Source of the DNA: Bolinopsis microptera
Lineage: Eukaryota > Ctenophora > Tentaculata > Lobata > Bolinopsidae
Assembly (NCBI RefSeq): GCF_026151205.1
Contig: NC_087076.1
Location: 14,371,675 to 14,431,674, forward strand
DNA: 60,000 bases
Direction: 5' to 3'
Below the pieces are notes generated by a model, which had not been told where the DNA came from, did no database searches, and saw only the letters and a list, made by a program, of their open reading frames with translations. Below, one piece after another: positions 2,994 through 52,423 of the stretch; position 1 is the first letter of the stretch; the number at the start of each line of letters is the position of its first letter. The translations under genes and the position numbers were made by a program.

Positions 2994-5453
2994 CTGAGGA
3001 GATATTTACAGTGAATACAGATGCCGAAAATATGTATGACATGATAGTAGAAGCTGTAGTATGGATGAACGGTGGCAATGATGCGGTTCTAATGCTTTAG
3101 CAATGAGGCTTAAGTGTGCTAGGTTGTCCCTGGAACCGGGAATAATAAAAAACAGAGCCTGTCTTGCCAGAAAAAATTCCCAGCCAGGAGGTCTAACTTA
3201 TCGCTACTTGTCCATTTTCCGGGATTAAAACTCTGAGAATTTTAACACCTGTCGTTTGGGGTGACACGTGACCCTTCCAAGGACATTTCCACCCAAATAT
3301 TTCAACAACCTCAGAAGGTTTCTTGACAGAACAATTCTGAGAAGTTACGGTACATTTAACTTCTGTCAAACCGTCCTGTATACTTTCTCAACCGCAGACT
3401 AAACTGGTAACTACGTGTTCCAAAATATCCTCAATACATCATAATACCTCTGCTATGGCCGCCATTTATCACTCTTGGATTTTTAAACGTTGCACGACAG
3501 GTTAAAGAATAGCTCAGTATTTTCTGACATGAGGTGTTTCGCGTAAGGTTCACGTCACCAATCTCAAGAATGTCAGTACAGATAGCTGCAAGATTCCAGA
3601 CATTATTCTGAAGCAAGCATGAAGGGTGGTTTAACACTGCATTCGCAAATATAGCACACTCCGCTCACCTCGTCTATTTCCCGGGTCAGGCTGAATTGGC
3701 GTATCAGGACAGAACCGACAGTAGGATACCTCGGTGGTTGAGAGGGCTCCGTCAGTTGCACGCATACTCAGGACGGCGTGGTGGGCCGGGCACCGGTTAA
3801 ACCGGATCAAGCCAACCCGGAAATGGAGGGTTTGTCAAGGTAACAGCTCCTCCCTGGATCTCATGACACATTGACACGTTAATTGAAACCAATCAACCCA
3901 GCAGGAAATCAGCTTGCAGCCAGTCAGAGACAAATTAAATTGGCTTGGAACCAATAGGAAGGCGAGAAGATCGTCATGTGACAAAAGGGGCATTCTGGTA
4001 GTAATGGAGCACGGAAACGCTGTTTAATCAGAATTAAACGGGGCAAAATCCAGTGGGGGAGCAAGTGCAATCACAGTCTGACAACATTTAGACATATAGG
4101 AAATATTTTGACCAGCTCCAAAGCTGATGTGTCATACATAAACCAGTGCTAACATCTCCTCAAATTATCAGCTATTATAAAAATATTTGCCCTTAATTGC
4201 TCCATATCTCGCAACTTTGATTCCCTGGCACCAATAATCTCCAACCAGCAGTTTACCAGCGTTACCTTTCGAAACCTAATAACTCACAAATCTCTCTGTT
4301 TAAGGACTGAAAGTAAAAACGTCCCTCGCCCACTCAGCTTAGACAAATGCAACGTGTGTTTCTCACCAAAATGAGGGGTTTCTCCGGAGATTATTAAGAG
4401 AGGTTACTACAAACCCTGTCAGACAGTTCATCCATTAAAGAGTGACAAGTTGGCACATTTCATGTCAGACACCATATCTACCTGCTCAAATACGGCGCTC
4501 AACATGTGGACTCTCCACTTTTATAAGGGAACCTTCAAGAGTTCTTCATCACACCACTATACTAAACGTATATATATATTATATATTGTAATACTCTGCA
4601 GGAGCACTAGTAATACTTATTATTCTGACAATTACTACTATCTGATAGTTGTGGCGGAGGCAATAATTCCTAATAATTGGAATGATTATTGTCAATAATT
4701 ACAACTCAATGGTTCTTGTAGCAGGATATTAGCGTGATATTGGACTCAGCAAATCAAATTCTTTCACTCATAACACTGTTATGACATTGTCAGTTTACGC
4801 TGCACTTATAACAAGCCAAAGAGCACTGATTGGGTACCTTACATCACGTGGTTTTAAAGGCGGAGTTTGATTCGCTGGTCAGGATTAATCCAGGATTGGA
4901 GGATGGAAAAGCTGGAGTCACGTGCGAATTAATCATTTTAATAGCAGGCGGACACGAACACATCGCTCCAAGATAGAAGGGGAGGTGAACAAAAGAAGAT
5001 GATATTAGATTAGTAGATATATTGTCACGAAGTGTATCGAGAGATAAGATAAACAAAATAATTGATTATGTTATTGTTGTAAACAGAGTTTGATAACACG
5101 ATGTGGCGACTACCCAGTCACAGTTCACCCACCCCCATATCCGTCCAATAGAACGGTTCAACACTTCTAACCTCTACCATTGATTAGTTTCATTAATACC
5201 ATCAATCACTTCAGAATGAATGCAACGCAACTTCTCAAACTTTCCAACTCAACCAATTGGCTGATCAATCGCTGGCGATATGGGCTGCTTCCTTGCTAAG
5301 AGATGCTCAAACTGCATTATAAACTAGGATTAATCTACGCTTTTAAAATAAAAGAAATATTGAGTATAGTGTTACGTAATATGTGATATGGGCCCTATGA
5401 TATAGCCCACCAAAGTGAATCATTTGATAATGAGACAATAAAAGTGAACTAAC
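2994..5453. other. Non-coding stretch between candidate and recognised homeobox exons
   Basis: No gene is recognised. CACGTG occurs near 3264 and 4844, CCAAT/ATTGG words near 3890, 3952 and 4830, and an AT-rich block at 4560-4700. If the candidate last exon is right, this is the final intron. If translation instead reads through the possible donor at 5453, the CDS would extend to about 5343 and the rest would be 3' flank. Confidence 0.4.
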
Positions 5454-23413
<17,960 letters not shown>

Positions 23414-29304: not shown

Positions 29305-30392
29305 TACACCCTACACCTAATGGTATAATTGCGTACCAGGTAAAACTACCAAGTGCCAACCGTCGCGTCCAGTAATAGAAATCTTGGACACTTTTCTTTT
29401 CCATTTTCGAGTTGTTTTCAAATGTTTAATTTTGCTGGCCAAATTGGAGTATTCAGGAAACAAACTTTGCAACGGAATCATTTCAGCCAATTATAAGGAC
29501 TGAAATATGGTGATACTTACGCATGGTGTTCGCGCGCGGCGGTGTCATAAATCATACCGTACGCTGCCCAGTGCCCATTCCGATCCCACGACCCATCGTC
29601 TTATCGAGAGCGTGTATGCGAAACCTTGGATGTTGGAGAACACTGTCGCTTCGCGCGCACTGCCGTGCTTGCTTCGCTGACTAGATCGTTGCTCTGCAAG
29701 TGCAGAGCTACGATCTGGAAGGGTTGGTATCGTCAGTCAAGAGGAACCGCACAAATGACAAAGCCAAAAGCGCGGCGCACATGCAGATGCAAAATATCAA
29801 ATATGACTATGAGTAAGGATACTGTTCTAGCCGGATTACACTGACGTACATCATACATGATCCGTCGCCCTCTTTTTCTCTCGGCCAGCCCCTGGCAAGA
29901 ACTGTAAGTGTAGCCCTTGTCGCCCGGGGAGCTGCAATTTTTGTCAACTTATCAGTTTATTATCTGGTTCTAATTGATATAAAAAATAATGTTGGAGCCC
30001 ATTGACACGTGTTAAAGGATGTCGTTGCAAGAGAGGTAAAATCAAAAATACAAAGTTGTTCGTATAATAAACATAAAACAAGATATATATATGAAATAGC
30101 GACTCTCGTCTCTCGGATAAGATGTCAATTTAGCTGTAATCACAAAATGAAATAGATCTAAACATAACAATAAAATAGTTATTCTGGAAATCAAATGAAC
30201 AATTAAACAAAATCATGGTTCAAATTGTTTTTCATTTTTGTAATAGTTTTTACAAGTCTACGATCAACTGGCTTAAACTTAAAGGACACCATGTAAATTT
30301 CAAACCATCGATTGCCCACCGATTTCTCAACTGATTATCGAAGGTGTATGTACATTGTAAGGCTACTCTCAAACAAAATTGCGTTCAAATCG
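29305..30392. other. Intergenic, no supported gene
   Basis: A moderately GC-rich stretch at 29520-29960 has an open frame (29626-29844, plus strand) without recognisable domain. A short Cys-rich reading, GKNCKCSPCRPGSCNFC, lies near 29896 in another frame. The rest is AT-rich. I see no gene I can defend. Confidence 0.35.
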
Positions 30393-30398
30393 GACAAT
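30393..30398. repeat. Left target-site duplication (GACAAT)
   Basis: GACAAT abuts the G-run that opens the element. The identical hexamer abuts the C-run at the other end. Confidence 0.75.
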
Positions 30399-30469
30399 GG
30401 GGGGGGTGTCATGTCCGTCTATGTCCGCCTATGTCCTGTCCTTTTTGGATTCTATGAGACAACGGACGT

Positions 30470-30640
30470 GTTTTTTGGGACATTGGCGGACACGGACGGA
30501 CATTGGCGGACTCGGACGGACATTAACGGACTCGGACGGACATAGGCGGACCCGGACGGACATAGGCGGACTCGGACGGACATTGGTGGACATTAGCGGA
30601 CATTGGTGGACATTAGCGGACGTTGGTGGACATTAGCGGA
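30470..30640. repeat. GGACATTGGC/GGACTCGGAC short tandem repeats
   Basis: A variable array of GGACATTGGC, GGACTCGGAC and GGACATTAGC units of about 12 bp sits just inside the left end of the element. The right end carries the opposite-strand counterpart (ATGTCCGCCT units, 37141-37226). Confidence 0.85.
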
Positions 30641-30764
30641 CAAACATTTTGAGAATTTTTCGCAACTTGTATTATAATCTTGTACAAAACAAACGACTTA
30701 TTAATCACACTAAAGCTATTAATAGCTTTAACTTATTATATCAAATTATATAGGGACCCAGGAA

Positions 30765-33700
30765 AAGGCCCCAGGAGGAGGAGGAGGAGGAGGAGAACTG
30801 GGGAGGAGGAGGACTGTTGAGGACTGATGAGGAGGACTGAGGACGAGGAGGAGGAGTAGGAGGAGGACTGAGGAGGGGAGGAGGAAGAGAACTGGGGAGG
30901 ATCAGGAAGACCCAGGAGGAGGACCCAGGAGGAGGACCCAGGAGGAGGAGGAGGAGGAGGACTCAGGAGGATGACTCAGGAGGAGGAGGACTGAGGAGGA
31001 CTGAGAAGGAGGAGGACTGAAGAGTACTGAAGAGTACTGAGGAGGATGGCTGAGGAGGATGGCTGAGGAGGATGGCTGAGGAGGATGACTGAGGAGGATG
31101 ACTGAGGAGGATGACTGAGAGGGAGGAGGAGGATCAGGAAGACCCAGGAGGAGGAGGAGGAGGAGGACCCAGAAGGAGGACCTAGGAGAAGGAGGAGGAG
31201 AACTGAGGAGGATGACTGAGGAGGAGGAGGACTCAGGAAGAGGACTCAGGAGGACTGAGAATGAGGAGGATGGCTGAGGAGGATGACTGAGAGGGAGGAG
31301 GAGGAGGAAGAGGAGGAAGAGGACTGAGGAGGAGGAGGAGAAGGACTGAGGAGGAGAAGGAGGACCCAGGAGGAGGAGGAGGACTGGGGAGGAGGAGGAC
31401 TGTTGAGGACTGATGAGGAGAACTGACGACGAGGAGGAGGAGTAGGAGGAGGACTGGGGAGGGGAGGAGGAAGAGGACTGGATAGGATCAGGAAGACCCA
31501 GGAGGAGGACCCAGGAGGAGGAGGAGGAGGACCCAGGAGGAGGAGGAGGACTCAGGAGGACTGAGGAGGAGGACTGACGATGACTGAGAAGGAGGAGGAC
31601 TGAGGTGTACTGAGGAGGATGGCTGAGGAGGATGGCTGAGGAGGATGACTGAGGAGGATGACTGAGAGGGAGGAGGAGGAGGACTCAGGAGGAGGACTCA
31701 GGAGGAAGAGGACTCAGGAGGAGGACTTAGGAGAAATGATAAGGAGGACTGAGGAGAACTGAGGAGGAGGAGGAGGACTGAATAGGAGGAGGAGAAGGAG
31801 GAGGACTGGGAGAGGACTGAGGAGTAGGAGGACTGATGAGAAGGAGGAGGAGGAGGACTGGGGAGGAGGAGGACTGTTGAGGACTGATGAGGAGGACTGA
31901 GGACGAGGAGGAGGAGTAGGAGGAGGACTGAGGAGGGGAGGAGGAAGAGAACTGGGGAGGATCAGGAAGACCCAGGAGGAGGACCCAGGAGGAGGACCCA
32001 GGAGGAGGAGGAGGAGGAGGACTCAGGAGGATGACTCAGGAGGAGGAGGACTGAGGAGGACTGAGAAGGAGGAGGACTGAAGAGTACTGAAGAGTACTGA
32101 GGAGGATGGCTGAGGAGGATGGCTGAGGAGGATGGCTGAGGAGGATGACTGAGGAGGATGACTGAGGAGGATGACTGAGAGGGAGGAGGAGGATCAGGAA
32201 GACCCAGGAGGAGGAGGAGGAGGAGGACCCAGAAGGAGGACCTAGGAGAAGGAGGAGGAGAACTGAGGAGGATGACTGAGGAGGAGGAGGACTCAGGAAG
32301 AGGACTCAGGAGGACTGAGAATGAGGAGGATGGCTGAGGAGGATGACTGAGAGGGAGGAGGAGGAGGAAGAGGAGGAAGAGGACTGAGGAGGAGGAGGAG
32401 AAGGACTGAGGAGGAGAAGGAGGACCCAGGAGGAGGAGGAGGACTGGGGAGGAGGAGGACTGTTGAGGACTGATGAGGAGAACTGACGACGAGGAGGAGG
32501 AGTAGGAGGAGGACTGGGGAGGGGAGGAGGAAGAGGACTGGATAGGATCAGGAAGACCCAGGAGGAGGACCCAGGAGGAGGAGGAGGAGGACCCAGGAGG
32601 AGGAGGAGGACTCAGGAGGACTGAGGAGGAGGACTGACGATGACTGAGAAGGAGGAGGACTGAGGTGTACTGAGGAGGATGGCTGAGGAGGATGGCTGAG
32701 GAGGATGACTGAGGAGGATGACTGAGAGGGAGGAGGAGGAGGACTCAGGAGGAGGACTCAGGAGGAAGAGGACTCAGGAGGAGGACTTAGGAGAAATGAT
32801 AAGGAGGACTGAGGAGAACTGAGGAGGAGGAGGAGGACTGAATAGGAGGAGGAGAAGGAGGAGGACTGGGAGAGGACTGAGGAGTAGGAGGACTGATGAG
32901 AAGGAGGAGGAGGAGGACTGAGGACCGAGGAGTTAGAGGAGGAGGATGAAGAGGAGGAGGAGGACCCAGGAGGAGGAGGAGGAGGAGGACTGGGGAGGAG
33001 GAGGACTGTTGAGGACTGATGAGGAGGACTGAGGACGAGGAGGAGGAGTAGGAGGAGGACTGAGGAGGGGAGGAGGAAGAGAACTGGGGAGGATCAGGAA
33101 GACCCAGGAGGAGGACCCAGGAGGAGGACCCAGGAGGACCCAGGAGGAGGAGGAGGAGGACTGAGGAGGATGACTCAGGAGGAGGAGGACTCAGGAGGAG
33201 GACTGAGAAGGAGGAGGACTGAAGAGTACTGAAGAGTACTGAGGAGGATGGCTGAGGAGGATGACTGAGGAGGATGACTGAGGAGGATGACTGAGAGGGA
33301 GGAGGAGGATCAGGAAGACCCAGGAGGAGGAGGAGGAGGAGGACCCAGAAGGAGGACCTAGGAGGAGGAGGAGGAGAACTGAGGAGGATGACTGAGGAGG
33401 AGGAAGACTCAGGAGGAGGACTCAGGAGGACTGAGAATGAGGAGGATGGCTGAGGAGGATGACTGAGAGGGAGGAGGAGGAGGAAGAGGAGCAAGAGGAC
33501 TGAGGAGGAGGAGGAGAAGGACTGAGGAGGAGAAGGAGGACCCAGGAGGAGGAGGACCCAGGAGGAGGAGGACCCAGGAGGAGGACCCAGGAAAAAGCCC
33601 CAAGAGGAGGAGGACTGGGGAGGAGGAGGACTGTTGAGGACTGATGAGGGGAACTGACGACGAGGAGGAGGAGTAGGAGGAGGACTGGGGAGGGGAGGAG

Positions 33701-36700
33701 GAAGAGGACTGGATAGGATCAGGAAGACCCAGGAGGAGGACCCAGGAGGAGGAGGAAGAGGAGGACCCAGGAGGAAGAGGAGGACTCAGGAGGACTGAGG
33801 AGGAGGACTGACGATGACTGAGAAGGAGGAGGACTGAGGTGTACTGAGGAGGATGGCTGAGGAGGATGGCTGAGGAGGATGACTGAGGAGGATGACTGAG
33901 AGGGAGGAGGAGGAGGACTCAGGAGGAGGACTCAGGAGGAAGAGGACTCAGGAGGAGGACTTAGGAGAAATGATAAGGAGGACTGAGGAGAACTGAGGAG
34001 GAGGAGGAGGACTGAATAGGAGGAGGAGAAGGAGGAGGACTGGGAGAGGACTGAGGAGTAGGAGGACTGATGAGAAGGAGGAGGAGGAGGACTGAGGACC
34101 GAGGAGTTAGAGGAGGAGGATGAAGAGGAGGAGGAGGACCCAGGAGGAGGAGGAGGAGGAGGACTGGGGAGGAGGAGGACTGTTGAGGACTGATGAGGAG
34201 GACTGAGGACGAGGAGGAGGAGTAGGAGGAGGACTGAGGAGGGGAGGAGGAAGAGAACTGGGGAGGATCAGGAAGACCCAGGAGGAGGACCCAGGAGGAG
34301 GACCCAGGAGGACCCAGGAGGAGGAGGAGGACTGAGGAGGATGACTCAGGAGGAGGAGGACTCAGGAGGAGGACTGAGAAGGAGGAGGACTGAAGAGTAC
34401 TGAAGAGTACTGAGGAGGATGGCTGAGGAGGATGACTGAGGAGGATGACTGAGGAGGATGACTGAGAGGGAGGAGGAGGATCAGGAAGACCCAGGAGGAG
34501 GAGGAGGAGGAGGACCCAGAAGGAGGACCTAGGAGGAGGAGGAGGAGAACTGAGGAGGATGACTGAGGAGGAGGAAGACTCAGGAGGAGGACTCAGGAGG
34601 ACTGAGAATGAGGAGGATGGCTGAGGAGGATGACTGAGAGGGAGGAGGAGGAGGAAGAGGAGCAAGAGGACTGAGGAGGAGGAGGAGAAGGACTGAGGAG
34701 GAGAAGGAGGACCCAGGAGGAGGAGGACCCAGGAGGAGGAGGACCCAGGAGGAGGACCCAGGAAAAAGCCCCAAGAGGAGGAGGAGGACTGGGGAGGAGG
34801 AGGACTGTTGAGGACTGATGAGGGGAACTGACGACGAGGAGGAGGAGTAGGAGGAGGACTGGGGAGGGGAGGAGGAAGAGGACTGGATAGGATCAGGAAG
34901 ACCCAGGAGGAGGACCCAGGAGGAGGAGGAAGAGGAGGACCCAGGAGGAAGAGGAGGACTCAGGAGGACTGAGGAGGAGGACTGACGATGACTGAGAAGG
35001 AGGAGGACTGAGGTGTACTGAGGAGGATGGCTGAGGAGGATGGCTGAGGAGGATGACTGAGGAGGATGACTGAGAGGGAGGAGGAGGAGGACTCAGGAGG
35101 AGGACTCAGGAGGAAGAGGACTCAGGAGGAGGACTTAGGAGAAATGATAAGGAGGACTGAGGAGAACTGAGGAGGAGGAGGAGGACTGAATAGGAGGAGG
35201 AGAAGGAGGAGGACTGGGAGAGGACTGAGGAGTAGGAGGACTGATGAGAAGGAGGAGGAGGAGGACTGAGGACCGAGGAGTTAGAGGAGGAGGATGAAGA
35301 GGAGGAGGAGGACCCAGGAGGAGGAGGAGGAGGAGGACTGGGGAGGAGGAGGACTGTTGAGGACTGATGAGGAGGACTGAGGACGAGGAGGAGGAGTAGG
35401 AGGAGGACTGAGGAGGGGAGGAGGAAGAGAACTGGGGAGGATCAGGAAGACCCAGGAGGAGGACCCAGGAGGAGGACCCAGGAGGACCCAGGAGGAGGAG
35501 GAGGAGGACTGAGGAGGATGACTCAGGAGGAGGAGGACTCAGGAGGAGGACTGAGAAGGAGGAGGACTGAAGAGTACTGAAGAGTACTGAGGAGGATGGC
35601 TGAGGAGGATGACTGAGGAGGATGACTGAGGAGGATGACTGAGAGGGAGGAGGAGGATCAGGAAGACCCAGGAGGAGGAGGAGGAGGAGGACCCAGAAGG
35701 AGGACCTAGGAGGAGGAGGAGGAGAACTGAGGAGGATGACTGAGGAGGAGGAAGACTCAGGAGGAGGACTCAGGAGGACTGAGAATGAGGAGGATGGCTG
35801 AGGAGGATGACTGAGAGGGAGGAGGAGGAGGAAGAGGAGGAAGAGGACTGAGGAGGAGGAGAAGGACTGAGGAGGAGAAGGAGGACCCAGGAGGAGGAGG
35901 ACCCAGGAGGAGGAGGACCCAGGAGGAGGACCCAGGAAAAAGCCCCAAGAGGAGGAGGAGGACTGGGGAGGAGGAGGACTGTTGAGGACTGATGAGGGGA
36001 ACTGACGACGAGGAGGAGGAGTAGGAGGAGGACTGGGGAGGGGAGGAGGAAGAGGACTGGATAGGATCAGGAAGACCCAGGAGGAGGACCCAGGAGGAGG
36101 AGGAAGAGGAGGACCCAGGAGGAAGAGGAGGACTGAGGAGGACTGAGGAGGAGGACTGACGATGACTGAGAAGGAGGAGGACTGAGGTGTACTGAGGAGG
36201 ATGGCTGAGGAGGATGGCTGAGGAGGATGGCTGAGGAGGATGACTGAGGAGGATGACTGAGAGGGAGGAGGAGGAGGACTCAGGAGGAGGACTCAGGAGG
36301 AAGAGGACTCAGGAGGAGGACTTAGGAGAAATGATAAGGAGGACTGAGGAGAACTGAGGAGGAGGAGGAGGAGGAGGAGGACTGAATAGGAGGAGGAGAA
36401 GGAGGGGGACTGGGAGAGGACTGAGGAGTAGGAGGACTGATGAGAAGGAGGAGGAGGAGGACTGAGGACCGAGGAGGAAGAGGAGGAGGATGAAGAGGAG
36501 GAGGAGGACCCAGGAGGAGGAGGACTGAGGAGGAGGACTGAGGAGGATGACTGAGAGGGAAGAGGAGGAGGAGGAGGAGGACTCAGGAGGAGGAGGAGGA
36601 GGACTGAGAAGGAGGAGGACTGAGGAGGAGGAGGAGGAGGAGGACTGAATAGGAGGAGGAAGAGGGGACTGGGGACTGGGGAGGACTGAGGAGGAGGAAG

Positions 36701-36970
36701 GAGGACTGAAGAGAAGGATGAGGAGGAGGATTGAGAACTGAGAAGGAAGAGGAGGAGGATGAAGAGGAGGAGGAGGACCCAGGAGGAGGACCCAGGAGGA
36801 GGACTCAGGAGGAGGAGGAGGACTGGGGAGGAGGAAGACTGTTGAGGACTGATGAGGAGGACTGAGGACGAGGAGGAGGAGTAGGAGGAGGACTGAGGAG
36901 GGGAGGAGGAAGAGGACTGAGGAAGATCAGGAAGACCCAGGAGGAGGAGGAGGAAGAGTAGGAGGAGGAA
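30765..36970. repeat. GGA-rich higher-order minisatellite
   Basis: The array is built from AGGAGGAGGACTGAGG-like words. The landmark GACTGTTGAGGACTGATGAG recurs at about 30812, 31399, 31872, 32458, 33003, 33629, 34177, 34802, 35352, 35977 and 36837. Spacing alternates between about 470-550 and about 585-625 bp, giving a two-part higher-order unit of about 1.06 kb early and 1.17 kb later. The plus strand is almost all purine with few Ts and Cs. Long Leu/Ser/Pro open frames on the minus strand are repeat artefacts. Confidence 0.95.
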
Positions 36971-37292
36971 GCATCTAAATGTTATTTCCATTTTTTTCCG
37001 TTTTTGTCCATTTTTGTCCGTTTTTGTCCGCTCTATTTTTTGTCCGTTTTGAAAATATAGGGTACCGAACGGACAAAAAACATGATCCCCCTATAACAGC
37101 AAACATTGAACATTTTATTTAGCAATTTAGGTGTCCATTAATGTCCGCTAATGTCCGTCTATGTCCGCCAATGTCCGTCTATGTCCGTCTATGTCCGCCT
37201 ATGTCCGCCTATGTCCGCCTATGTCCGCCTATGTCCTGTCCTTTTTGGATTCTATGAGACAAGCGGACATAGACGGACGTGACACCCCCCCC

Positions 37293-37298
37293 GACAAT
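37293..37298. repeat. Right target-site duplication (GACAAT)
   Basis: GACAAT directly follows the C-run that closes the element and matches the left copy exactly. Confidence 0.75.
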
Positions 37299-37827
37299 AT
37301 AGACATGCCCAAAACGGGCATTTTGGCAAAAAATGGCAAAAAGATAAAAAGATAGTCAACCCCCAAATCCCAGCTACAATTTGAGAACATCCTAATTCCT
37401 ACAGCTAGGTCCCTCCCCGAATGCAACACTCAAAACATTATGGCCAGGATAATAGGGGATTTGTTAACATTTTTTGGCTTTTGGCCCATTTTTGGCAACA
37501 ACAAAAAAGCCCTTCCGCACTTTGATAACATCATTTGATACATGAGCGTCGCGTCTGTTAGGTCAATTAACATCTCCTGAAATTTAACGCGATTGAATGT
37601 TATCTTCATAGACTTTCGGCCAAAAAACCTTAAAATGGGGTTTTTAAACCTTTTTTGGATAACATTCAGTCGAAATAAGGGTCCCTGAGCTTTATTGAGG
37701 GTGAAAATCTTCCTTATTTACGATATACCTTCGATAATCCGTTAATAAATTTGTGGGCTCTCGATGTTTTGAAATTTACATGGGTCCTTAACACTGTTTA
37801 CATAGATTAAGATGATGTATCTGCTAT
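37299..37827. other. Intergenic, 3' flank of the HACD3-like gene
   Basis: AT-rich with TTTTTGGC words and no gene recognised. It directly follows the stop codon of the minus-strand HACD3-like gene and should include its 3' untranslated region. I did not pin down a poly(A) signal. Confidence 0.4.
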
Positions 37828-37976: not shown

Positions 37977-40900
37977 CTGAGAATAGAGTGGATTTAAACT
38001 TCAGTGATATTAATATCACAATTAATTTTGTCAATTTTACTATTATTTATGCGCGACCTATAAGTATTAAGTATAGTGGTAAGACTTATTAGTAACGACT
38101 GAGGTTGAGAATTAGATCCACTACTAATTGATGGCCAATAAAACCAAAATGTTTGAAAATAAGAACGAAAACAAATCATATGTACACCATAATTGAAATT
38201 CACACAGGCAAATTAGATCCAATTACCAATTGCAGGAGCAGCAAGGTAAATCTTGAGGAAGAGGCTGAAGTCGAAAGCAACGTTGAGACTATTGGGTAGA
38301 GTAACAGTGAGGCGCCCTGACTGTGACACTAACTCTATACACTGATACACTAAACTTGCTGAAACATTACTGGTGGTTACTTAAAGGGAGTCTAGATATA
38401 TATCGCATATTATCTCGTCACTGAGCATTAACATGTAAGAGTAGTATCATTTGTTGGAGGACAAAAAAGGTTTAATTAATACGATGTTATAAAAAAACTA
38501 ATGTGAATAAATCGAATAAAGAATGAATGGGAATTAGTGTTTTTATACAGACCTTCACATATCAATCCAATAGGATAGAGAGGAACCCACACATTGTACC
38601 TCAGCCACATTAATTTAGGGAAGTATAACTCGTAAATCTGGACTATGTAATATGGGTACCTGCGACCATTGGTAATTGTTAACTTTCACCGGTTGGTAGT
38701 TGACCTGTTTAATACAGCTCTGGAATGCTCATATCAAAGATTGTTAGTACTAAGAAGTTGGAATTCGTCCTGTTTGTGGCATCTTACTGCTTGTCCAAAT
38801 AATTTCACTTTAAAAATTAAACTGAATGCGTTTTAAGTAATAACTAATACACTATATACCTGACGACCTCAACAGCACACCAAGCTACCACGAGAAGATA
38901 ACAAGAGAGGGAGGTTTGGAGAGATGGTTCCGCGTCAACAACACAAAATAACACAATTGCTCTTCCAACCACCTGGGATACGAGAGATAAAGGAGATAAG
39001 GGAGATGAGAGAGATGAGGGAGATGAGAGAGATGAGAGAGATAAGGGAGATGAGGGAGATGAGGGAGATATGGGAGATGAGAGAGATGAGGAGATGAGGG
39101 AGATAAGGGAGATAAGGGAGATAAGGGAGATGAGGAGATGAGGGAGATGAGGGAGATGAGGAGATGAGGGAGATGAGGGAGATGAGGGAGATGAGGGATA
39201 TGAGGGAGATGAGAGAGATGAGGGAGATCAGAGAGATGAGGGGAGGAGTCAAATCCAGAAAATTACACCACTATGGGACCGTTCACATATTGCGTAATCA
39301 CTTTTTGGCAAATTTTTAACCCCCCTCCCCCCTCCGTAATCAATTTTATACATAGCTAAGGTGTCAAAATAACACTAGCGTAATCATTTGGAAACCCCCC
39401 CCCCCCCTCCCCTCCGGCTGATAACGTAATATGTGATTTGTACTATGATTTGTACAGTTATTTTAACAAAGATGTGGCCGTTATTTTATTTTATTTTGCT
39501 ACGAACGTTAGACCTGACCAGCTTTAACCCGCAAAAATACATAACATCAGGACTCAGGAGTGAATTCTTTACATCAACAGAGCCGGAAGATCATCACCAT
39601 TTATGAGGTTAATTTAATGAAGCACAATTATCTAAGTGTTTCCACATTCTTGTTTTTCTTCAGTTTTACTCAATTTAGACTGTTAGCTCGCTTCATAAGC
39701 ATGTCATCTTCGTTCCAAAACTTTTTATGACCTAATCATACACTCCTTGATAGTTATCTTGATCTAGTATCTTTGTTTCACACAATAGAGCATAAGTTTT
39801 GTGGTTTATCCACTGGGCTTAGATTTTGTGTTTAAGCTACCAAATTTTATTATTTATTATTTATTTGTAGTGTCCGGTACTTATCGTAGTTAAACTAAAG
39901 AATATTATCATTTTTGAATATTTGATGAACTAAAGGTTTTATTAAATATCTAGTTTACTTTTATCGCGTATGTTCTAGTCAAGGCAACCATATATTTTAT
40001 TTTATTCAAATATCGTACGATTGATAACGTACTGCAATATTGAAGACTTATTAGCATCATTGATTACTATGATTGATAACTATGATTAAAGGGTAAAGAA
40101 TCAGACATTATATCATACTACAATTTTATCGCACAATTTTAATAAAGTTTATAAAGATAAGTATTTAAACCCAAAAAATAATACCTAGACACCTAGGATA
40201 TAACTACATAATATCTTATATTCAACGAACACCGTTGAATGCTTGACAACATAAGTTAATTTTTAGCCAAAGAATGTGAGTTTGTTTTCAACTTCCATTT
40301 CAAGTTCCAGCTTCTGTCCGGGTCCCGGAATGATGTCGCGTCTTCAGACACGTAGATGGCATAGTTCCCGTAAACAGGTCCGCTCATCAGGTTACTGCCA
40401 ATCTGCGTCCCCGCGTCACTGCCCTGCAGCTGAACTTTGCACGATGTACTCCACAAGGTATTTGGGCAATTTTGGATGTTGGATATCTCGTGAGGCCAGC
40501 GGTCACTGAGAGAGACTCCGGTGAGGGGGTTGCAGTGAAAGTCGTTTCCCAGTCCGTGGGTGTTGTCGTCATTAACACCGGTAGGTGACAGAAACCCTCC
40601 TGTCATCACGATCCTGTGTCCATTATCGGTATATGCCCAGTTGAAAGCCAAGTCTCCTCCCACAGAAAATATCGGGTCGTCTCCCATGTTCTGAGCATTC
40701 TTGCTTACGCTCTCTTGGAGAGGACCACCCTCCGTAACCACGTCCCTGCCCGGGTTCATGTCCTGGAACCGGGAGAGAAGGGACCTGCCACTCTGTGTAA
40801 ATCGGAACACTTTCACTGCGTCCACCTCCCCTCCCTGGTGTCTCACAATGGCTATGTAGCTCACGGGGTGGTTCCAGATCACTCGGTTCAAGTAATCTTT

Positions 40901-46900: not shown

Positions 46901-49900
46901 GATGATCACAGTGTACTGGTCCTCATTATCAGACTCACCAACTGCCTCTCCTGTTAGCTCCTGTAGCTGCTTCCTGTTCATTGATAGAACCCTGTTGAAC
47001 CCTCCCTTCTTCACAGAGGATCCTCGGTTCAGCTCACCCTGTTTCAGGGACATGACTCTGTTCAGACTTTTCTTCTTGAAGCTCGACGTTCCTCCGGCTG
47101 GTTTTCTGAGCGTCATAGCTCGAGCCTTGTTGAAACTCTTCTTGAAGGAGCTCCTGTTCTTGAACATACCACGATACCCGGCATCTTTTGCGGTTTTGGA
47201 TCGGTTTAGAGCGGGTTCTCTAATTGTTACTCGACGAACAGAGCCAGCAACTCTTCCAGCTTGGACTCGTGCCAAAGGACTCGGTGGGAGTGGAGAATGT
47301 ATCAGAGGGCTCGGTGGGAGAGGGACCTGGCTGGAACTGGAGGTACCACATTCCGGTGATCTTGTTTCTGCTTCTAGTTCGTAAAGTTTGCGTTTAATTG
47401 ATGCTCCGATCTGGAGGTTAGTCAAAGTGCGGTCTCTCACAGACTGGACTCTTTTATCTCTTGGAAACATACTCGAACGAAGACAAATAACTCTAGGCCC
47501 CAAGGCCAAGGCTTGTTGACTATCTCTTCCAATCTTTAAAATTATTGGTCCGTGAACGCGAGAAATCGACATTTTGACGAGAACAAAAGAAGGTAATAAG
47601 TAAGTACCCTCGCTAATTGAATTGTCAGTAGTTGAGTAGTTACACCTGATTGACCTCACACAACTTAAAGCTTGATAATGAGCACAAAACACATTGTAAC
47701 AGTGACCAGGTGGTTTTAATAGGACCACGTAACTGTAAACATCTACTTTACTCCGACAAATGTGGAAAATTTCCGCTTGGAATATATTTTATGTATGTGT
47801 TTGTATATTATGGCGGTTCCGATTATCGTATCTTGAACCAGCTCGAAATCTCCTCAATAGCAACCAGAAACCCTGTTATAACCAATTTAATATACTTTAA
47901 TATGGTCATCCCCCCCCCCCCCCCCCCCCCTTTTTTTGTTGTTTTATGACACCGATACTCCTATAAGAATAAATGAGAATCATGATGAATGATAACATTT
48001 AGTGCGAAGGGTTGTTCCAACCGCGAATGTGCCACACCAACATAAAAGAGAAGCTAGCAATTTCCCATTGGGAAACGGAGGAGTAATATTACCACACAAT
48101 GTTTACAATATAGTGATCTTTTGTTTCTTAATTATATGTCTGGGTACCTGTGTGTGTGTACTGTGTGTTATAGCACACAGTAAACCACCTCACAATGTAA
48201 GCTTACACTCCGGTAATTACACTGCCCGCCCCCACAAATCCTGGTATTTCTTACGGGTCAACTTACACTTCTAGAAGATTACATTTCACAGCCAATAGAA
48301 AGGGGCCACATGCAACGTGGGGCTATTTTTTCTCAGCAAAATATTGTGGGTAAAGTTAATTTTCAATAATCAACAATTCCCCAAACTCCCAAACTTGGAA
48401 AGCAGAATGATTAAATATATAGAATGCTGAATGAGAACCTACTCTCTTTTTCTGCCTCTTCGAGATCTCGGGTGATATCGTCGGAGTTCAGCATACTGGA
48501 CATCTGTGGATATAACAAGTTATTGCTTTGAATTTTGGTACTGAAAGTAAGTTTATTATTGCGATATCATCCAATTTAATTAACCGCGGGGCGCGGGAGC
48601 ATAATCGCCGGGTACGGAAGTTGTGGGGCCTCACGTACATGCTGGACTTTAGTATCTTGAGGGAGCGGTCCGTGCTCATCCTCTAATTTTCTCTTCGCGT
48701 CTTCCAGTTTGCGCGCCGCAATAGTTTCCTCGTCAGTCAAATCCACACTGTCGACATCAAACTTCAGCCAGCGATGTTTGTCTGGAGTGAGTCTGCTCCA
48801 TTCTTGGTGACAGTCTGCGAATGAAAGTTATATCAATTTTCTGGGTAAAAGGGTTGGGCACCATACTTTTGATGGGCGAAATAATTGCCCAATAAATTCG
48901 ATCAACAGTGGAATGTTTAGTTTCTGGGCTCTAGATTAAGGTTTAGTTTCTGGGGTAAAGATTAATGTTAATAGAGCAGCGGGAATAATACAGTGCTGTG
49001 AGGACTGTTTATAAAATCTTTAAAAAAAAGGTTTAACAAACAACCATTAAAGTATTGGAACGGAAAAATATTGTCCAGTACAGTAATTAATAATTTTCAA
49101 ACCTTCTGCCTTCGCAATAACGACCTTGATTCTGCGATCTTTAATCTTTGTATCGAACCTCTGCAAGAAATTGTTTTAAAGCCGACCAAAAAATATTTTT
49201 TAAGAGAAGCTTTTCTGTCGTCCCTTTGACCGAAATTTCGCAGTTTTGGCTGACAATTTGACCAGTGACCAATCAGTGAGGTCGGTGAGAGTGACACAAG
49301 TCGCCATAAGGTACTGGAAGCAGTATATGCGTAGAAAACGTTGATGCAATTAAAATTTTGAATGTGTCCTACCGGTGGGACATATTCGAATTTCTGCTCT
49401 CCGTAACCCAAATTTTACAGTTTTGACTGAATTTTTCTTGAATGACCATCGTACAGGGTCACAGAAGAATGAGGATGGCACAAGACACGATTGAGGTACT
49501 AAAAGTACTATTCCCAAAGAAAGCTTTGATAAACGGAAAATCATACTAAGAATATAAAAAGAGATTTTGGAAGATTTTTGAAGAGGAGCTTTTCTGCCGT
49601 CCCCTTGACCGAAATTTCACGATTTTGACTGAAATTTTTACCAGTGACCAATTAGTGAGGTCGGTAAGAGTGACACAAGTCGCCATCAAGGTACTGGAAG
49701 CAGTATATCCGGAGAAAACTTTGATGCAATGAAAATTTTGAATATGTCCTACCGGTAAGACATATTCGAATTTCAGCTCACCGCAACCCAAATTTCACTG
49801 TTTTCACTGAATTTTTCTTGAATGACCATCGTACAGGGTCACAGAAGAATGAGGATGGCACAAGACAGGATTGAGGTATTAAAAGTACTATTCCCAAAGA

Positions 49901-51010
49901 AAGCTTTGATAAACGGAAAATCATACTAAGAATATAATAAAGAGATTTTGGAAGATTTTTGAAGAGGAGCTTTTCTGCCGTCCCCTTGACCGAAATTTCA
50001 CGATTTTGACTGAAATTTTTACCAGTGACCAATCAGTGAGGTCGGTGAGAGTGGCACAAATCGCCATCAAGGTACTGGAAGCTGTTTATCCGGAGAAAAC
50101 TTTGATGAAAAGAAAAGACACTATCGAGGTACCAGGAAAGTTTGATTCCCAAGAAAACCTTCTTCTGCCGTCTCCTGAACCAAAATTTCGCGGTCCTGAC
50201 TGAATTTTTGACCTGTGACCAATCAGTGAGGTCGGTGAGAGTGACACAAGTCGCCATCAGTGATCAGTATTATGTATACATATAATGCAAGGTGGCCCAG
50301 AAGTTACTGTCCACACGTAATCCTTGAGTAAATCTTTCAGAATTATACAAACATTTCAGGGATAACACATATATGGGTCAAGCTTAGATTCGCTAAAAGT
50401 TTCGTCGATTTGTGTGTGCAGTTTGTGTGGGCAGCCAACTGGAAATAACATTAAATATCAGTGATGTTTTCAGCGTGTTACACTGTGAGGTGTAACCAGT
50501 TATATTTTGAACTTACATTAGGATCTACTTTTTTGTATAGGGTGATGTCAAACTCATACTTTCCAGAACTTGATTCGGCTGAAACAAACATGACAAGTTA
50601 GATTCAGATTTTCTTAATCACTTCTCAAATAATTGAACACCAAATAAAAGTGTAAATCGGGTAGCGTTGCATTACTTTGCGAGACTGCCAATCTCACCTT
50701 CAAAATGAACAGAAGACTCGGTTAGATCGACTTTCACTGACTCTCTCTGAAAAAGTGTTGAGCATGAAAACTTCAAATACAGTAAGGTTAATTTACCAAA
50801 AACAAAGTGTAGCAAAGTGTTTAAAAGTGTCGTTAAAAGTTTTACAAACATTTTTGACAAGATAATAGCGAAAATTGTGTTGAAAAAATCTAATGTTACA
50901 CGGTTACCGATTTAACAAAAATTAACAGTTACCTTTGGATCAACGATCTCAATTATTAGACCGATGAAGGAATCTTTCTGGTACCATTTGACTTGTGGTG
51001 GTACTGACAT
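37828..51010 (-). CDS. HACD3: HACD3-like very-long-chain 3-hydroxyacyl-CoA dehydratase with N-terminal CS domain
   Basis: This is an ER membrane enzyme removing water from 3-hydroxyacyl-CoA, the third step of very-long-chain fatty acid elongation. Twelve coding exons total 1224 bp, or 407 residues plus stop, compared with about 362 in the human protein. All 11 junctions are in phase. Residues 1 to about 115 form a p23-like CS domain (KWYQKDSF, KYEFDITLYKKVDP, EWSRLTPDKHRWLKFDVD). Residues about 115-165 are a charged linker. From about 165 the PTPLA/HACD membrane domain follows: YNSVVWLGYFY, VFLEIIHSVTGL, VVAWCAVEVVRYPYY, MWLRYNVWVPLYPIG. The active-site pair known from yeast Phs1 is present: Tyr307 (LYPIG) and Glu314 seven residues later. 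A basic tail (KKKESKKAK) ends the protein, as in ER proteins. Introns 6 and 8 each contain other genes on the same strand. Confidence 0.93.
38227..38358 (-). CDS. HACD3: HACD3-like exon 11
   Basis: It encodes SLVYQCIELVSQSGRLTVTL and PNSLNVAFDFSLFLKIYLAA. This parallels the human HACD3 segment GRFSFTLP...FSFFLQIYL, which separates HACD3/4 from other HACDs. Confidence 0.93.
38553..38659 (-). CDS. HACD3: HACD3-like exon 10 (active-site Tyr and Glu)
   Basis: It encodes YPYYIVQIYELYFPKLMWLR and YNVWVPLYPIGLIC, with the Glu completed at the next junction. The Tyr of LYP and that Glu, seven residues apart, correspond to the catalytic pair described for yeast Phs1. Confidence 0.95.
38860..38972 (-). 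CDS. HACD3: HACD3-like exon 9
   Basis: It encodes VVGRAIVLFCVVDAEPSLQT and then SLSCYLLVVAWCAVEVV. This matches the family helix ending in WSxxExxRY. The acceptor lies next to a CT-rich minisatellite of about 260 bp. Confidence 0.92.
38980..39245. repeat. GAGATGAGG/GAGATAAGG minisatellite at a splice acceptor
   Basis: Nine-bp GGGAGATGA-type units, with ATAAG and AGAG variants, run for about 260 bp. On the HACD3 sense strand this is a CTCATCTCC polypyrimidine array ending a few bases from the exon 9 acceptor at 38972. Confidence 0.92.
39275..39442. mobile_element. MITE related to the 28.9-29.3 kb copy
   Basis: The left end is GGGACCGTTCACATATTGCG, then TAATCAC and a C-rich tract. The right end reads GCTGATAACGTAATATGTGA, approximately inverse to the left but truncated before the GAACGG part. 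TACATAGCTAAGGTGTCAAA is shared with the copy at 29.0 kb. Confidence 0.65.
39443..40255. other. AT-rich intronic sequence
   Basis: This part of HACD3 intron 8 is strongly AT-rich with no open frame of interest. It should include the 3' end of the nested 281-aa gene on the minus strand. Confidence 0.4.
40256..41101 (-). CDS. Secreted 281-aa protein, nested in HACD3 intron 8
   Basis: The frame begins MFVLILLVSILSQLTITRAR, a clear signal peptide. The mature part has W/G-rich motifs (AWHLAMNLNPADGHVMGYAV, GDLAFNWAYTDNGHRIVMTG, DNTHGLGNDFHCNPLTG, YGNYAIYVSED). It contains only three cysteines and no second membrane helix. It faintly recalls fibrinogen-like extracellular proteins of marine invertebrates, but I cannot name a family. 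The ATG lies eight bases after an acceptor-like TATAATTTCAG, so a 5' untranslated exon upstream is possible. It is on the same strand as its host gene and appears intronless. Confidence 0.75.
   Translation of the reverse strand: MFVLILLVSILSQLTITRARSLERIERVETKAWHLAMNLNPADGHVMGYAVGWAQDIFIGTYTEALTKDYLNRVIWNHPVSYIAIVRHQGGEVDAVKVFRFTQSGRSLLSRFQDMNPGRDVVTEGGPLQESVSKNAQNMGDDPIFSVGGDLAFNWAYTDNGHRIVMTGGFLSPTGVNDDNTHGLGNDFHCNPLTGVSLSDRWPHEISNIQNCPNTLWSTSCKVQLQGSDAGTQIGSNLMSGPVYGNYAIYVSEDATSFRDPDRSWNLKWKLKTNSHSLAKN
41102..43099. other. Intronic/intergenic spacer between nested genes
   Basis: I recognise no gene. Two CACGTG words at 42141 and 42179, 38 bp apart, lie about 1.1 kb upstream of the 281-aa gene. 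A TCGTAT/CTCGA-rich patch lies at 41440-41585. The rest is AT-rich. Confidence 0.4.
43100..43765 (-). CDS. Transmembrane and cytoplasmic part of the D8C protein (3' frame)
   Basis: The frame opens without an ATG. It encodes LNSAVLVVLVIALTLFVVHK, a single membrane helix, followed by about 185 residues of hydrophilic tail with acidic stretches and a KKRRKKKKK cluster, ending SLIVPV. It makes sense only as the continuation of the upstream ectodomain. A one-base change within CTGACCCCCAAAAAG would fuse the frames and extend the NPDPEP pattern. A sequencing error, a true break or a programmed shift are all possible. Confidence 0.7.
   Translation of the reverse strand: MLSIGLNSAVLVVLVIALTLFVVHKFCIGKGARRIEPQTPPSALNEDLEAVPEAAPEKSDSANKESETGGGLKRGPGLDPPTPQSKGTPAQGPVRQQVQHVPAAEIEEDTEHCDNDITGKDKFSAVEGGSFKVHKDPRGEKGGPRSRKGRVLTVHHDELEPQSEVSVAGDDVLSGAILQKQVADGATRDVVRKKRRKKKKVGPSNLEGNSSSDKASLIVPV
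43750..44481 (-). CDS. D8C-domain ectodomain part of a membrane protein (5' frame)
   Basis: The frame starts MLLSLLLLPLSMSYQ, a signal peptide. A Cys-rich region follows with the D8C pattern of uromodulin/GP2-type proteins: DPCRRGDYKVY, AAWNRASKSIC, WYKF, CPPQGHC, VCWSNNGDF, ITECSDGGLLYKFPASLNNK and a closing Cys. Several N-x-S/T sites suggest glycosylation. It ends in NPDPEPNPDPEPN repeats and, in this frame, stops eight codons past a C5A5 run. The membrane helix sits in the -1 frame (43100-43765). An ATG at 44481 is better than the frame's earlier non-ATG opening. Nested in HACD3 intron 8. Confidence 0.78.
44503..45334. other. AT-rich upstream region of the D8C gene
   Basis: No exon is found. 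The stretch has a (TA)n run near 44913-44926 and TACTAATTAGTACTAAT repeats at 44850-44885. It is intronic to HACD3 and presumably contains the nested gene's promoter. Confidence 0.4.
45335..45462 (-). CDS. HACD3: HACD3-like exon 8
   Basis: It encodes LRSCQQTVFLEIIHSVTGLT then KTSTFATFAQ, matching the LE(I/T)xHxxxGLxxTSxxxTxxQ motif of the family. Donor CAG|GTCAGT is phase 0. Confidence 0.93.
45696..45806 (-). CDS. HACD3: HACD3-like exon 7 (first enzyme membrane helix)
   Basis: It encodes YDMLKNSYLTIYNSVVWLGY followed by a hydrophobic helix and IEGTG. This matches the family's K-x-YLxxYNxxMxxGW segment. A CTGGTAACACA minisatellite lies just upstream of its acceptor. Confidence 0.9.
45820..45915. 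repeat. CTGGTAACACA minisatellite
   Basis: Nine copies of an 11-bp unit, CTGGTAACA(C/T/A)A, stand head to tail. The array begins 15-20 bp upstream of the HACD3 exon 7 acceptor on the sense strand. Confidence 0.93.
46382..47572 (-). CDS. Two-pass membrane protein with basic repeats, nested in HACD3 intron 6
   Basis: I choose the ATG at 47572 (AAAATGTCG context), giving 396 residues; the frame is open 52 codons further up. The N-terminal two-thirds is basic and Ser-rich with three similar blocks of about 20 residues: SSFKKSFNKARAMTLRK, SSFKKKSLNRVMSLKQ and SSVKKGGFNRVLSMNRK. An acidic run (DSDEEEEEEV) follows. Two hydrophobic helices come next (ILMLLTAVFSIIFVSVWHAF and VMLGVALSILLTVVSLVKI), then a short tail. 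I do not recognise a family. The protein probably anchors a cytosolic basic region to a membrane. It is uninterrupted by introns and lies on the same strand as the host. Confidence 0.78.
   Translation of the reverse strand: MSISRVHGPIILKIGRDSQQALALGPRVICLRSSMFPRDKRVQSVRDRTLTNLQIGASIKRKLYELEAETRSPECGTSSSSQVPLPPSPLIHSPLPPSPLARVQAGRVAGSVRRVTIREPALNRSKTAKDAGYRGMFKNRSSFKKSFNKARAMTLRKPAGGTSSFKKKSLNRVMSLKQGELNRGSSVKKGGFNRVLSMNRKQLQELTGEAVGESDNEDQYTVIIQRNDQSDVWSMLGADEARLSSMRKFRFSSIRRWPDSDEEEEEEVSPVSQAVWDGYLSREEQYELRKKIFHKGEYMILNYALILMLLTAVFSIIFVSVWHAFQDNDVGMYVMLGVALSILLTVVSLVKIRLRLARRAPGGYKFRRDEKSTVIDNVGCEPDVEKCTELEKISDV
47573..48442. other. Intronic upstream flank of the nested two-pass gene
   Basis: It contains a poly-C run near 47911-47930 followed by T7, and otherwise AT-rich sequence. 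Short open frames here carry no recognisable domain. Confidence 0.4.
48443..48503 (-). CDS. HACD3: HACD3-like exon 6 (linker)
   Basis: Twenty codons plus one base encode MSSMLNSDDITRDLEEAEKE, a charged coil linking the CS and enzyme domains. Donor GAGA|GTAGGT is weak, but the phase matches exon 7 exactly. Reading through would stop after 13 further codons, giving a CS-domain-only protein. Confidence 0.75.
48639..48814 (-). CDS. HACD3: HACD3-like exon 5 (end of CS domain, charged linker)
   Basis: It encodes EWSRLTPDKHRWLKFDVDSV, the W-x-RL...WLKxDFD signature shared by p23 and HACD3, and then an acidic/basic linker (LTDEETIAARKLEDAKRKLE). The donor CAT|GTACGT is preferred because it keeps phase with exon 6. 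Confidence 0.9.
49103..49160 (-). CDS. HACD3: HACD3-like exon 4 (CS domain)
   Basis: It encodes RFDTKIKDRRIKVVIAKAE, a basic strand typical of the CS fold. Acceptor CTTGCAG, donor GAAG|GTTTGA. In-phase on both sides. Confidence 0.85.
49170..50262. repeat. About 380-bp direct repeats in HACD3 intron 3
   Basis: The block GTGACCAATCAGTGAGGTCG, then GTGAGAGTGACACAAGTCGC, recurs at about 49265, 49642, 50022 and 50216. A companion block, CATCGTACAGGGTCACAGAA, recurs at 49448 and 49828. The unit is about 380 bp with a shortened last copy. No frame stays open through the array. Confidence 0.85.
50288..50450. mobile_element. Solo end of a mariner-like element
   Basis: The stretch from AAGGTGGCCCAGAAGTTACT to GCTAAAAGTTTCGTCG matches, with changes, the terminal inverted repeat of the mariner element at 52.4 kb (GGGTGGCCCATAAGTGACTA...CTAAAAGTTTCGTAAG). 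No opposite end is seen nearby. Confidence 0.7.
50517..50578 (-). CDS. HACD3: HACD3-like exon 3 (CS domain)
   Basis: It encodes ESSSGKYEFDITLYKKVDPN, matching the YEFHLEF...VKPE strand of HACD3. Donor AAT|GTAAGT is phase 0. Confidence 0.9.
50698..50746 (-). CDS. HACD3: HACD3-like exon 2 (CS domain)
   Basis: The exon encodes ESVKVDLTESSVHFE, a CS-domain strand equivalent to the family's 'ITENVLHFKA'. It is 49 bp with acceptor TTTTTCAG and donor GTGAGA. Confidence 0.85.
50933..51010 (-). CDS. HACD3: HACD3-like exon 1 (start)
   Basis: The ATG in TCCAATGTCAG opens a 26-codon exon beginning MSVPPQVKWYQKDSFIG, the first strand of a CS domain. The donor AAG|GTAACT is phase 0. Confidence 0.85.
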
Positions 51011-51362: not shown

Positions 51363-52423
51363 AAGCAACCCTACCTAAAATTATACAAATTAGGTGATTT
51401 TCCTGGTCTTATTGGTTGATCAAACTCACAAGGTCTTTAGTTACTGCAACTGAGTAAGCATATTCACGGGATGTTATCCTGACAGGATTGATGATGCCTA
51501 GCCTGCCACACCGAACAAGAAGTTCGGGGATATCTCTCTCGTGCTGGTTGACTGGACGACCAAGGAAGGCTAGAATGAGCACATGCATGATCTTGCTCTC
51601 CAGTGAGGCAAAGTACTCTGCATTATCAGGTATTGTTCTCATGAAGAACCTCCATCGGTGGCATAATCCTTTGGTGAAGGCTGAATAAGCCAGCTGTGGT
51701 TCTTTAGATGCAATATCAGCAAGTTGCTCAATATCTGTTATCCATTTCTCAACTTTTTCTTTGATGAAATCTTCCCTAAATTTCTTTAAGCCTACCACAG
51801 AACCAAGGTGACGTTCTCCAGATGTCGTGATCTTAACTCCAAGATGCCAAAATAGAGTCTCTGCTTCAGTTTCGTCTTCGGGATTCTTGACAATTAGAAT
51901 GGTCTTTTTAGCGTTGGGGTAGTACCCATATCCCGGACCGATGTCACAAAGTCTATTCCACCACTGAAGAAGTTAGATGAAGCTTCCACATGCAGAGCTG
52001 TCATCAGCGTCCCACACCATGGTTGCTTCTGCATAAGCACTGAGATCATCTATTATAGGTCTAGTGGCTATGGAGTAAAATTGCATTGCTGCAACATCTC
52101 CTTGAGTAAAACAAAATTTTAGTAAAACAACATTTTATTTTATACCCACAATCAATTCATATTTAGTTCAAATATCTAAAGTCAAAATAACCATTTCACA
52201 GAAGTGGTTTTATTATAGTAAAATAATTTGTGATATGTGTGATAAATTAATAAATTAATTTACACTCAGAAATGTACAAAAATAGACAATTTTTACTTTG
52301 CAACAATGGTTCAACGCGCGGCTGATCGAAAAAGTTTGGTTTTACATTTACTAACTACAGTGTACAGCGTACGCGTACATGAAAAGATAACTTAGAACTG
52401 AATTGTTTAATACTTAATACATA

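Follow-up and report, generated by a model that had tools for sequence, protein, structure and literature searches.

Layout of the element

The window analysed here is a 60,000-nucleotide stretch of the Bolinopsis microptera genome (C5:14371675-14431674; C1, C2, C3, C5 and C11 denote contigs of the 264.65-Mb assembly that was searched, and labels of the form L0nn denote genomic loci). Within it lies a 6,894-bp block (30399-37292) that has 30-bp inverted ends (8 G plus 22 bp) and an interior made of a purine minisatellite, and this block belongs to a DNA transposon family, here called A, that numbers several hundred copies. We propose that the minisatellite probably entered A inside a second, related transposon, called B, and that the genes of A were afterwards removed by internal deletion. 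The features of the window copy are given below, where the 12.1-kb copy is a gene-bearing member of A described in a later section.

30393-30398, plus strand: left target-site duplication, GACAAT; three paralogous empty sites have a single related hexamer
30399-30428, plus strand: left terminal inverted repeat of A, 8 G then TGTCATGTCCGTCTATGTCCGC; the family end
30437-30462, plus strand: 26-bp end spacer TGTCCTTTTTGGATTCTATGAGACAA, within the left-end hairpin
30478-30642, plus strand: left subterminal array of 20-bp GGACAT-type and 10-bp units; similar arrays occur in sampled copies
30641-30695, plus strand: left unique block of A, AAACATTTTGAGAATTTTTCGCAAC..., common to the 12.1-kb copy
30696-30752, plus strand: scar, one hybrid copy of a 54/57-bp repeat; the 12.1-kb copy has two repeats, 10.4 kb apart
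30773-36969, plus strand: purine minisatellite of AGGAGGAGGACTG-type units, arranged in higher-order units of 1060-1174 bp; presumed interior of nested B
36971-37091, plus strand: right end of the putative nested sister element B, with TTTTTGTCCG units, spacer ATAGGGTACCGAACGG and tip ...CATGATCCCCC
37092-37097, plus strand: TATAAC, presumed right copy of the 6-bp target duplication of B, the left copy probably being deleted here
37098-37136, plus strand: right unique block of A, AGCAAACATTGAAC...GGTGTCC
37141-37236, plus strand: right subterminal array of A, 10-bp unit ATGTCCGCCT
37237-37262, plus strand: 26-bp spacer TGTCCTTTTTGGATTCTATGAGACAA in direct orientation, within the right-end hairpin
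37263-37292, minus strand: right terminal inverted repeat of A, last 8 bases C
37293-37298, plus strand: right target-site duplication, GACAAT

The left end reads GGGGGGGG-TGTCATGTCCGTCTATGTCCGC and the right end repeats it in inverted orientation but for a single T/C mismatch, GACAAT adjoining both, just as an earlier sequence-only reading of this stretch had described. The 17-bp end motif has 20 matches in the window at up to 3 mismatches, compared with 0.09 expected. A hairpin is predicted at each end (z -5.2 and -4.2), and the 26-bp segment common to both ends lies within both folds; the sequence-only reading had correctly noticed this direct segment and took it as a sign that a short element had been split, whereas it belongs to each end's own hairpin. 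That reading had also seen no transposase inside, only GGACAT-type short repeats and a higher-order GGA array, and we reached the same result: all frames of at least 120 amino acids in the window copy are low-complexity array frames, and the GGA array (about 6.2 kb, 82% purine) contains a landmark that recurs at intervals of 1060, 1132, 1174, 1174 and 1485 bp. Comparison of adjacent units revealed no mismatch between units 1 and 2 in 1060 aligned bases (72 further columns are gaps) and none between units 3 and 4 in 1171 aligned bases (6 further columns are gaps). Since these adjacent blocks are identical apart from gaps, the last amplification was recent; the array of the window copy has recently multiplied in blocks of about 1.1 kb.

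A large family with duplications and empty sites

Searching the genome at up to 2 mismatches returned 379 matches to the left-end 35-mer and 405 to the right-end 35-mer, and none to the reversed patterns that served as control, so the end is not a sequence that occurs once only. We then paired ends that match the 35-mers without mismatch (86 of 100 listed left ends, the left list being stopped where the right list ended, and 100 listed right ends) and obtained 77 pairs with 1,199-12,101 bp between the outer 35-mer edges (median 2,622). Another 9 left and 23 right ends were unpaired, and some ends (L024, L038, L044, L045 and L047) are single since their partner mismatches the 35-mer. A miniature inverted-repeat transposable element (MITE) is typically under about 800 bp, a size that neither these pairs nor the 6,894-bp window copy have.

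For closer study, loci were sampled non-randomly, 20 regions from the first places listed on C1 and 20 chosen for extreme length or an unpaired end, with L009 and L038 counted once as a single locus. The resulting set of 30 complete copies leaves aside loci with one end only or with diverged ends (L025/L040, L019/L039, L041, L042, L043, L046 and L048), at which purine bins are also present; L015 and L021 stand outside the junction typing reported below. An exact 6-bp flanking duplication was found in 21 of 27 paired copies compared with 6 of 702 crossed flank pairs, and in L028, L035 and L037 four to five flanking bases match strictly, or six if the adjoining bases of the G/C-run are included. 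The target hexamers (n = 21) have T at the third position in 16 cases and A at the fourth in 18.

Empty sites, all of them paralogous sites in the same single assembly, were found for at least three copies (L031: 140 of 140 bases; L016: 139/140; L027: 138/140). The query consisted of the joined flanks of 21 sites, those of L031 matching over all 140 bases at 33 places; because this site filled the matches listed, the silence of the other sites is uninformative. The site in the window is spanned by three paralogues (L052, L053 and L054; 77-81%) with a single hexamer each (GGCATT, GGCAAT and GGCAAT, respectively), the last with a 7-base insertion beside it. The sequence-only reading had asked for empty sites with a single GACAAT; for the window copy there are the three paralogues just named, each with a related hexamer. 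By the exact duplications and the empty sites the block is a transposed unit, as had been supposed, and a chance inverted repeat around a satellite is ruled out by these together with the hundreds of copies.

The terminal G-runs vary from 6 to 36 bases with a mode of 8 (14 of 52 tips from 26 copies) and are often unequal within a copy; tips of such variable length are unusual for a transposon. The right unique block (the right end of B and the first bases of A) has a mean identity of 97.4% among 27 copies, for which reason we consider the array-bearing family young. As to the surroundings of the window copy, its flanks are inverted arms (85%) near 30282-30349 and 37723-37789, and besides both flanks 23 further genomic rows match these arms, one row being the right arm. 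With paralogues of its site elsewhere, the window copy thus sits within a member of another repeat family.

The purine array across copies

An array of 0.54-6.14 kb was present in 29 of the 30 complete copies, with the purines always on the strand that reads from the left end to the right end. The array motif has 931 matches in the genome at up to 2 mismatches, and for 100 listed places among these we sought ends within 13 kb on the appropriate strand. Both perfect ends were found at 61 places, one at 34 and none at 5. These counts uphold the idea that the minisatellite spreads with the element, and the 95 places with at least one perfect end rule out a free satellite that has such ends nearby by chance. 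Two of the five places without ends lie in L018, the ends of which mismatch the listed patterns, two others (C2:9403586 and C3:10122021) coincide with matches to the left block and the scar, and one (C2:10898869) is left without explanation.

The array is absent in at least four copies (L021, L058, L059 and L061), the last three of which rule out that it is always kept. L021 (C1, about 7609207-7617201) has the ends of A and, in its interior, about 7 kb of a tandem unit of about 500 bp, its right side likewise being array-less; this interior dismisses L021 as a gene-bearing copy. The unit of about 500 bp is common elsewhere, mostly at 79-84% identity and at 92-93% at two C5 places. Separately, 1-3.4 kb of non-array sequence lies inside the array in L035 (2000-5400), L022, L018 and L039, and these stretches are perhaps nested insertions.

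A gene-bearing copy and its putative transposase

One copy with the ends of A is longer and carries a transposase-like gene besides the array (C3:11553861-11565981, L029 and L030; 12,121 bp; duplication AACGTT). From left to right it contains the left end with its array, a minus-strand gene in three stretches, a small open frame, an array of about 4 kb with a 42-bp unit, about 1.8 kb of mostly unique sequence, a purine array of about 1.04 kb and the right end. The three stretches are colinear with an intact frame of 766 amino acids at L049, with identities of 26%, 32% over 253 amino acids and 31% over 86 amino acids, and the two proteins have in common the motifs SID.T.V.G, DGD.PLR, QD.LH..KK.RN and GSD.NEQ.FA.VR.G. 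The hAT, P, Kolobok and MuDR group of DDE transposases has a C/DxxH motif after the second D; neither protein gave a profile match to it. In both proteins QDPLH or QDLLH is present together with SD.NEQ.FA.VR, and we read this layout as that of a candidate D, D, DxxH, E transposase; DxxH is also mentioned for Dada in the accessible part of a report on that superfamily (PMC3706591). The gene of the 12.1-kb copy would then be the transposase of A, working in trans.

The first gene stretch matches four places at E <= 0.001, the 12.1-kb copy included, and PADLOC models and a tblastn search of phages gave no match for the gene product. At L049 the intact transposase-like frame (2145-4442; C11:13821644-13823941) has a frame of 264 amino acids ahead of it and no Pfam match, and no such element ends were found within the 6 kb fetched. 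We considered the small frame of the 12.1-kb copy (233 amino acids) as a relative of this first frame and found no resemblance. Two places on C5 (6692015-6693499 and 6787265-6788027) are 77-84% similar to the small-frame region and perhaps belong to a sister gene-bearing family.

Internal deletions

The 12.1-kb copy contains two direct repeats of 54 and 57 bp that are separated by 10.4 kb, the first inside the left block and the second ahead of the purine array. The window copy shares both ends with it and is without the approximately 10.4 kb that lie between these repeats, and its single repeat is of the left type at the first difference and of the right type at the later ones. The window copy is thus an internal-deletion derivative with an identified junction, and its scar would be the product of a deletion between the direct repeats, presumably in the direction from gene-bearing to gene-less. 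The same left-then-right order was observed in L028, L044 and L047, and another mosaic in L018. The scar type may descend from the 12.1-kb copy; alternatively, that copy may be a recombinant that took scar and array from a shortened copy.

Among 27 typed gene-less copies there are at least 8 junction types. The junction between CATTTTGAG and GACTGAAGAG is common to 13 copies, and the others are those of L011, of L017 with L026, of L024, of L027 with L037, of L035, and of L020 with L045. Parts of the unique block of about 1.8 kb are kept in 22 further rows, L020 and L045 among them (40 of 203 candidates scored), the longest remnants being 782, 616, 514, 461, 439 and 419 bp. In L045, about 305 bp of foreign sequence (element positions 402-706) precede the scar repeat, near the base at which array-less copies depart.

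A probable nested sister element

On its right side the array of the window copy ends in TTTTTGTCCG units, the spacer ATAGGGTACCGAACGG and a C-run tip (...CATGATCCCCC, ending at 37091), followed by TATAAC. This tip with TATAAC was found in 25 of the 30 copies at up to 3 errors, with TATAAAC in L027, and was not found at that threshold in L021, L034, L044, L045 and L047. To the left of the array, L027 and L037 have 13 G, CTCATGTTATTTTTTGTCCGTTTTTGTCCG, the spacer of B in the same direction and about 450 bp of unique sequence, and their G-run tip is the inverted counterpart of the right C-run tip. This left end of B lies at about 792-1260 in L027 and about 547-1000 in L037. To judge from these sequences, B appears to be built like A, with inverted G-run tips, TTTTTGTCCG arrays and a direct spacer of its own at both ends. 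Its left-end 35-mer matches 29 places at up to 3 mismatches, L027 and L037 among them, and the 461-bp left block matches at least 40 places at 77-100% (40 of 1010 candidates scored).

The hexamer TATAAC agrees with the 6-bp, TA-centred targets of such elements. In the 12.1-kb copy it flanks the array block on both sides, and the left TATAAC is also present in L020. At the right ends of three other A copies (L058, L059 and L061) the array is absent and the sequence reads ...GGGAATATAACAGCAAAAATTG..., with one TATAAC; these three are among seven unique-block rows that stop at one and the same base. We infer that B inserted into A near its right end and, in doing so, carried the purine array into A.

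Proposed history and alternatives

The history that we consider probable starts with a cut-and-paste-type DNA transposon, A, with a G-run and inverted ends of about 22 bp, hairpins, and, next to the ends on their inner side, arrays of the end motif. B, with the purine minisatellite as its interior, would have inserted near the right end of A and made the 6-bp duplication TATAAC. Internal deletions would then have removed the gene block of A and, in most copies, the left end of B, leaving a unit of left A, array, right tip of B and right A. The ends of A would mobilise such units, presumably in trans, into AT-rich WWTAWW-like hexamers, with the subterminal arrays as likely transposase binding sites, and the tandem array would lengthen or shorten in each lineage, the window copy multiplying blocks of about 1.1 kb. 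The suggestion of the sequence-only reading that an element was split and expanded in the middle stands in its first half: an element was split, apparently by a nested related transposon and not by expansion of its own middle.

Several observations weigh against this history, and the additional step that nesting requires, itself inferred, lowers its odds. The left TATAAC of the 12.1-kb copy precedes A-like sequence and not the left tip of B, so that no examined copy shows a whole B with both hexamers; the left tip of B is found beside the left TATAAC in no examined copy, and in L027 and L037 it adjoins the left array of A without a matching hexamer. The array-less copies could be ones from which B was excised or deleted rather than ones it never entered, and some junction types may represent second deletions of copies already shortened. 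Among the 27 pairs, L015 and L034 have no duplication and L033 has a mismatch. Lastly, the gene product gave no Pfam model above the cut-off and no PDB sequence match, and the whole gene block was found at one place only.

A variant that differs in one step, in which the 12.1-kb copy is a recombinant that gained scar and array from a shortened copy, we regard as possible though unlikely. It would account for the repeat of the A left block that adjoins the array in the 12.1-kb copy where the left end of B is expected, the hybrid repeat of the window could be the older state, and the single occurrence of the whole gene block also favours it. The variant needs an extra exchange, while one deletion event between the direct repeats suffices to produce the left-then-right mosaic.

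It seems improbable that the array is original to A, with the array-less copies arising by deletion from TATAAC to TATAAC and B being a separate family that shares the end motif. Flanking 6-bp direct repeats would indeed also serve a microhomology deletion, and the sole gene-bearing copy has the array; against this, the right border falls exactly at the C-run tip, the inverted counterpart that precedes the array in L027 and L037 identifies a separate family, and the hexamer has the form of a target of such elements.

We also regard as improbable an extension in which the minisatellite, nested in from a related family, took over A, as its presence in 29 of 30 complete copies and its constant orientation would suggest, and aids the mobilisation or amplification of A, being kept by selection for transposition and not as mere cargo. 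The G-rich strand of the array could form quadruplex or triplex DNA. The three array-less right ends make it less likely that the array is a strict requirement.

Very little speaks for a short MITE, the starting point that the sequence-only reading had in mind, whose own middle expanded into the array. Tandem arrays inside MITEs are known, according to the accessible part of one report (PMC12628747), and the array does grow inside copies; set against this are the 77 end pairs with none under 1,199 bp, the long unique and coding sequence of the 12.1-kb copy, and the array border formed by the tip of another element. Equally hard to credit is that arrays originated or expanded solely at their individual sites, once the element had inserted, transposition not having spread them: the identity of units 1 and 2, and of units 3 and 4, in the window copy is of more recent date than the mean of 97.4% between copies would indicate, but 13 copies share both junction and array start, and L011 with L026 and L012 with L023 align as single blocks over nearly their full length.

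Other features of the window

Outside the element, the window contains an uninterrupted (CT)195 dinucleotide run (8836-9226), a 380-bp tandem unit in 2.4 copies with 93% matches (49195-50116), and 29 copies of a 9-bp purine unit, GAGATGAGG, that differs from the unit of the element's array (38984-39242). On the minus strand, an open frame at 21756-22142 matches the Meis/PKNOX N-terminal domain (E 1.6e-8), and a frame of 187 amino acids at 51409-51972, without a Pfam match, resembles what we take to be a reverse transcriptase fragment.

Relation to known systems and significance

Helitrons have no target duplication and no inverted termini, and are ruled out for A by its 6-bp duplications and inverted ends. 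The comparisons that follow rest on the accessible portions of the reports cited. IS3EU/GingerRoot elements share the 6-bp target duplication and have TA..TA termini (PMC10045372), which excludes them here, as the termini of A are G-runs. Dada elements make 6-7-bp duplications, target small RNA genes and include families described there as lacking terminal inverted repeats (PMC3706591); with its inverted ends and varied AT-rich target hexamers A is not one of them.

Tandem-repeat MITEs such as Xenopus miDNA4, Xstir and the elements of the clam Donax (PMC12628747) resemble A in being non-autonomous inverted-repeat elements that spread a satellite contained within them in variable copy number. 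They are short and are said to capture or tandemise their array, whereas members of A measure 1.2-12 kb, apparently acquired the array through a nested sister transposon, and have arrays that reach 6 kb with higher-order units. Tetris, a foldback element of Drosophila whose internal repeats give rise to satellite-like arrays (PMC4079207), is likewise modular; it bears tandem repeats close to its termini and exists in numerous rearranged versions. It amplifies repeats of its long inverted ends; A has inverted ends of about 30 bp plus short arrays, and amplifies an interior purine minisatellite in one orientation. In Galileo, of the P-element superfamily, tandem repeats in the ends hold extra transposase binding sites (PMC3688188), a role that we propose for the subterminal arrays of A; Galileo differs in its long foldback-like ends and THAP domain, A having 6-bp duplications, G-run tips and a gene without a Pfam match. 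The BrickBuilt MITE of Porphyromonas gingivalis also holds a minisatellite inside a multi-copy element (23-bp unit, 19 copies in one strain; PMC4596501). That element is bacterial and no gene-bearing relative of it is described there, whereas A has a gene-bearing copy. A purine minisatellite in a DNA transposon was not found in the openly licensed literature, which was covered mostly at listing level.

The putative transposase of the 12.1-kb copy, being without a Pfam match, may represent a lineage not modelled so far. For minisatellites the proposed history would provide a concrete route, in which the repeat gains entry to one transposon family by residing in another, outlasts the deletion of the genes, is then carried along to hundreds of sites and is amplified in higher-order blocks within individual copies. 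The order of these events can be tested, given the clean junctions, the empty sites of the host element, the presumed empty sites of the nested one, and the gene-bearing copy.

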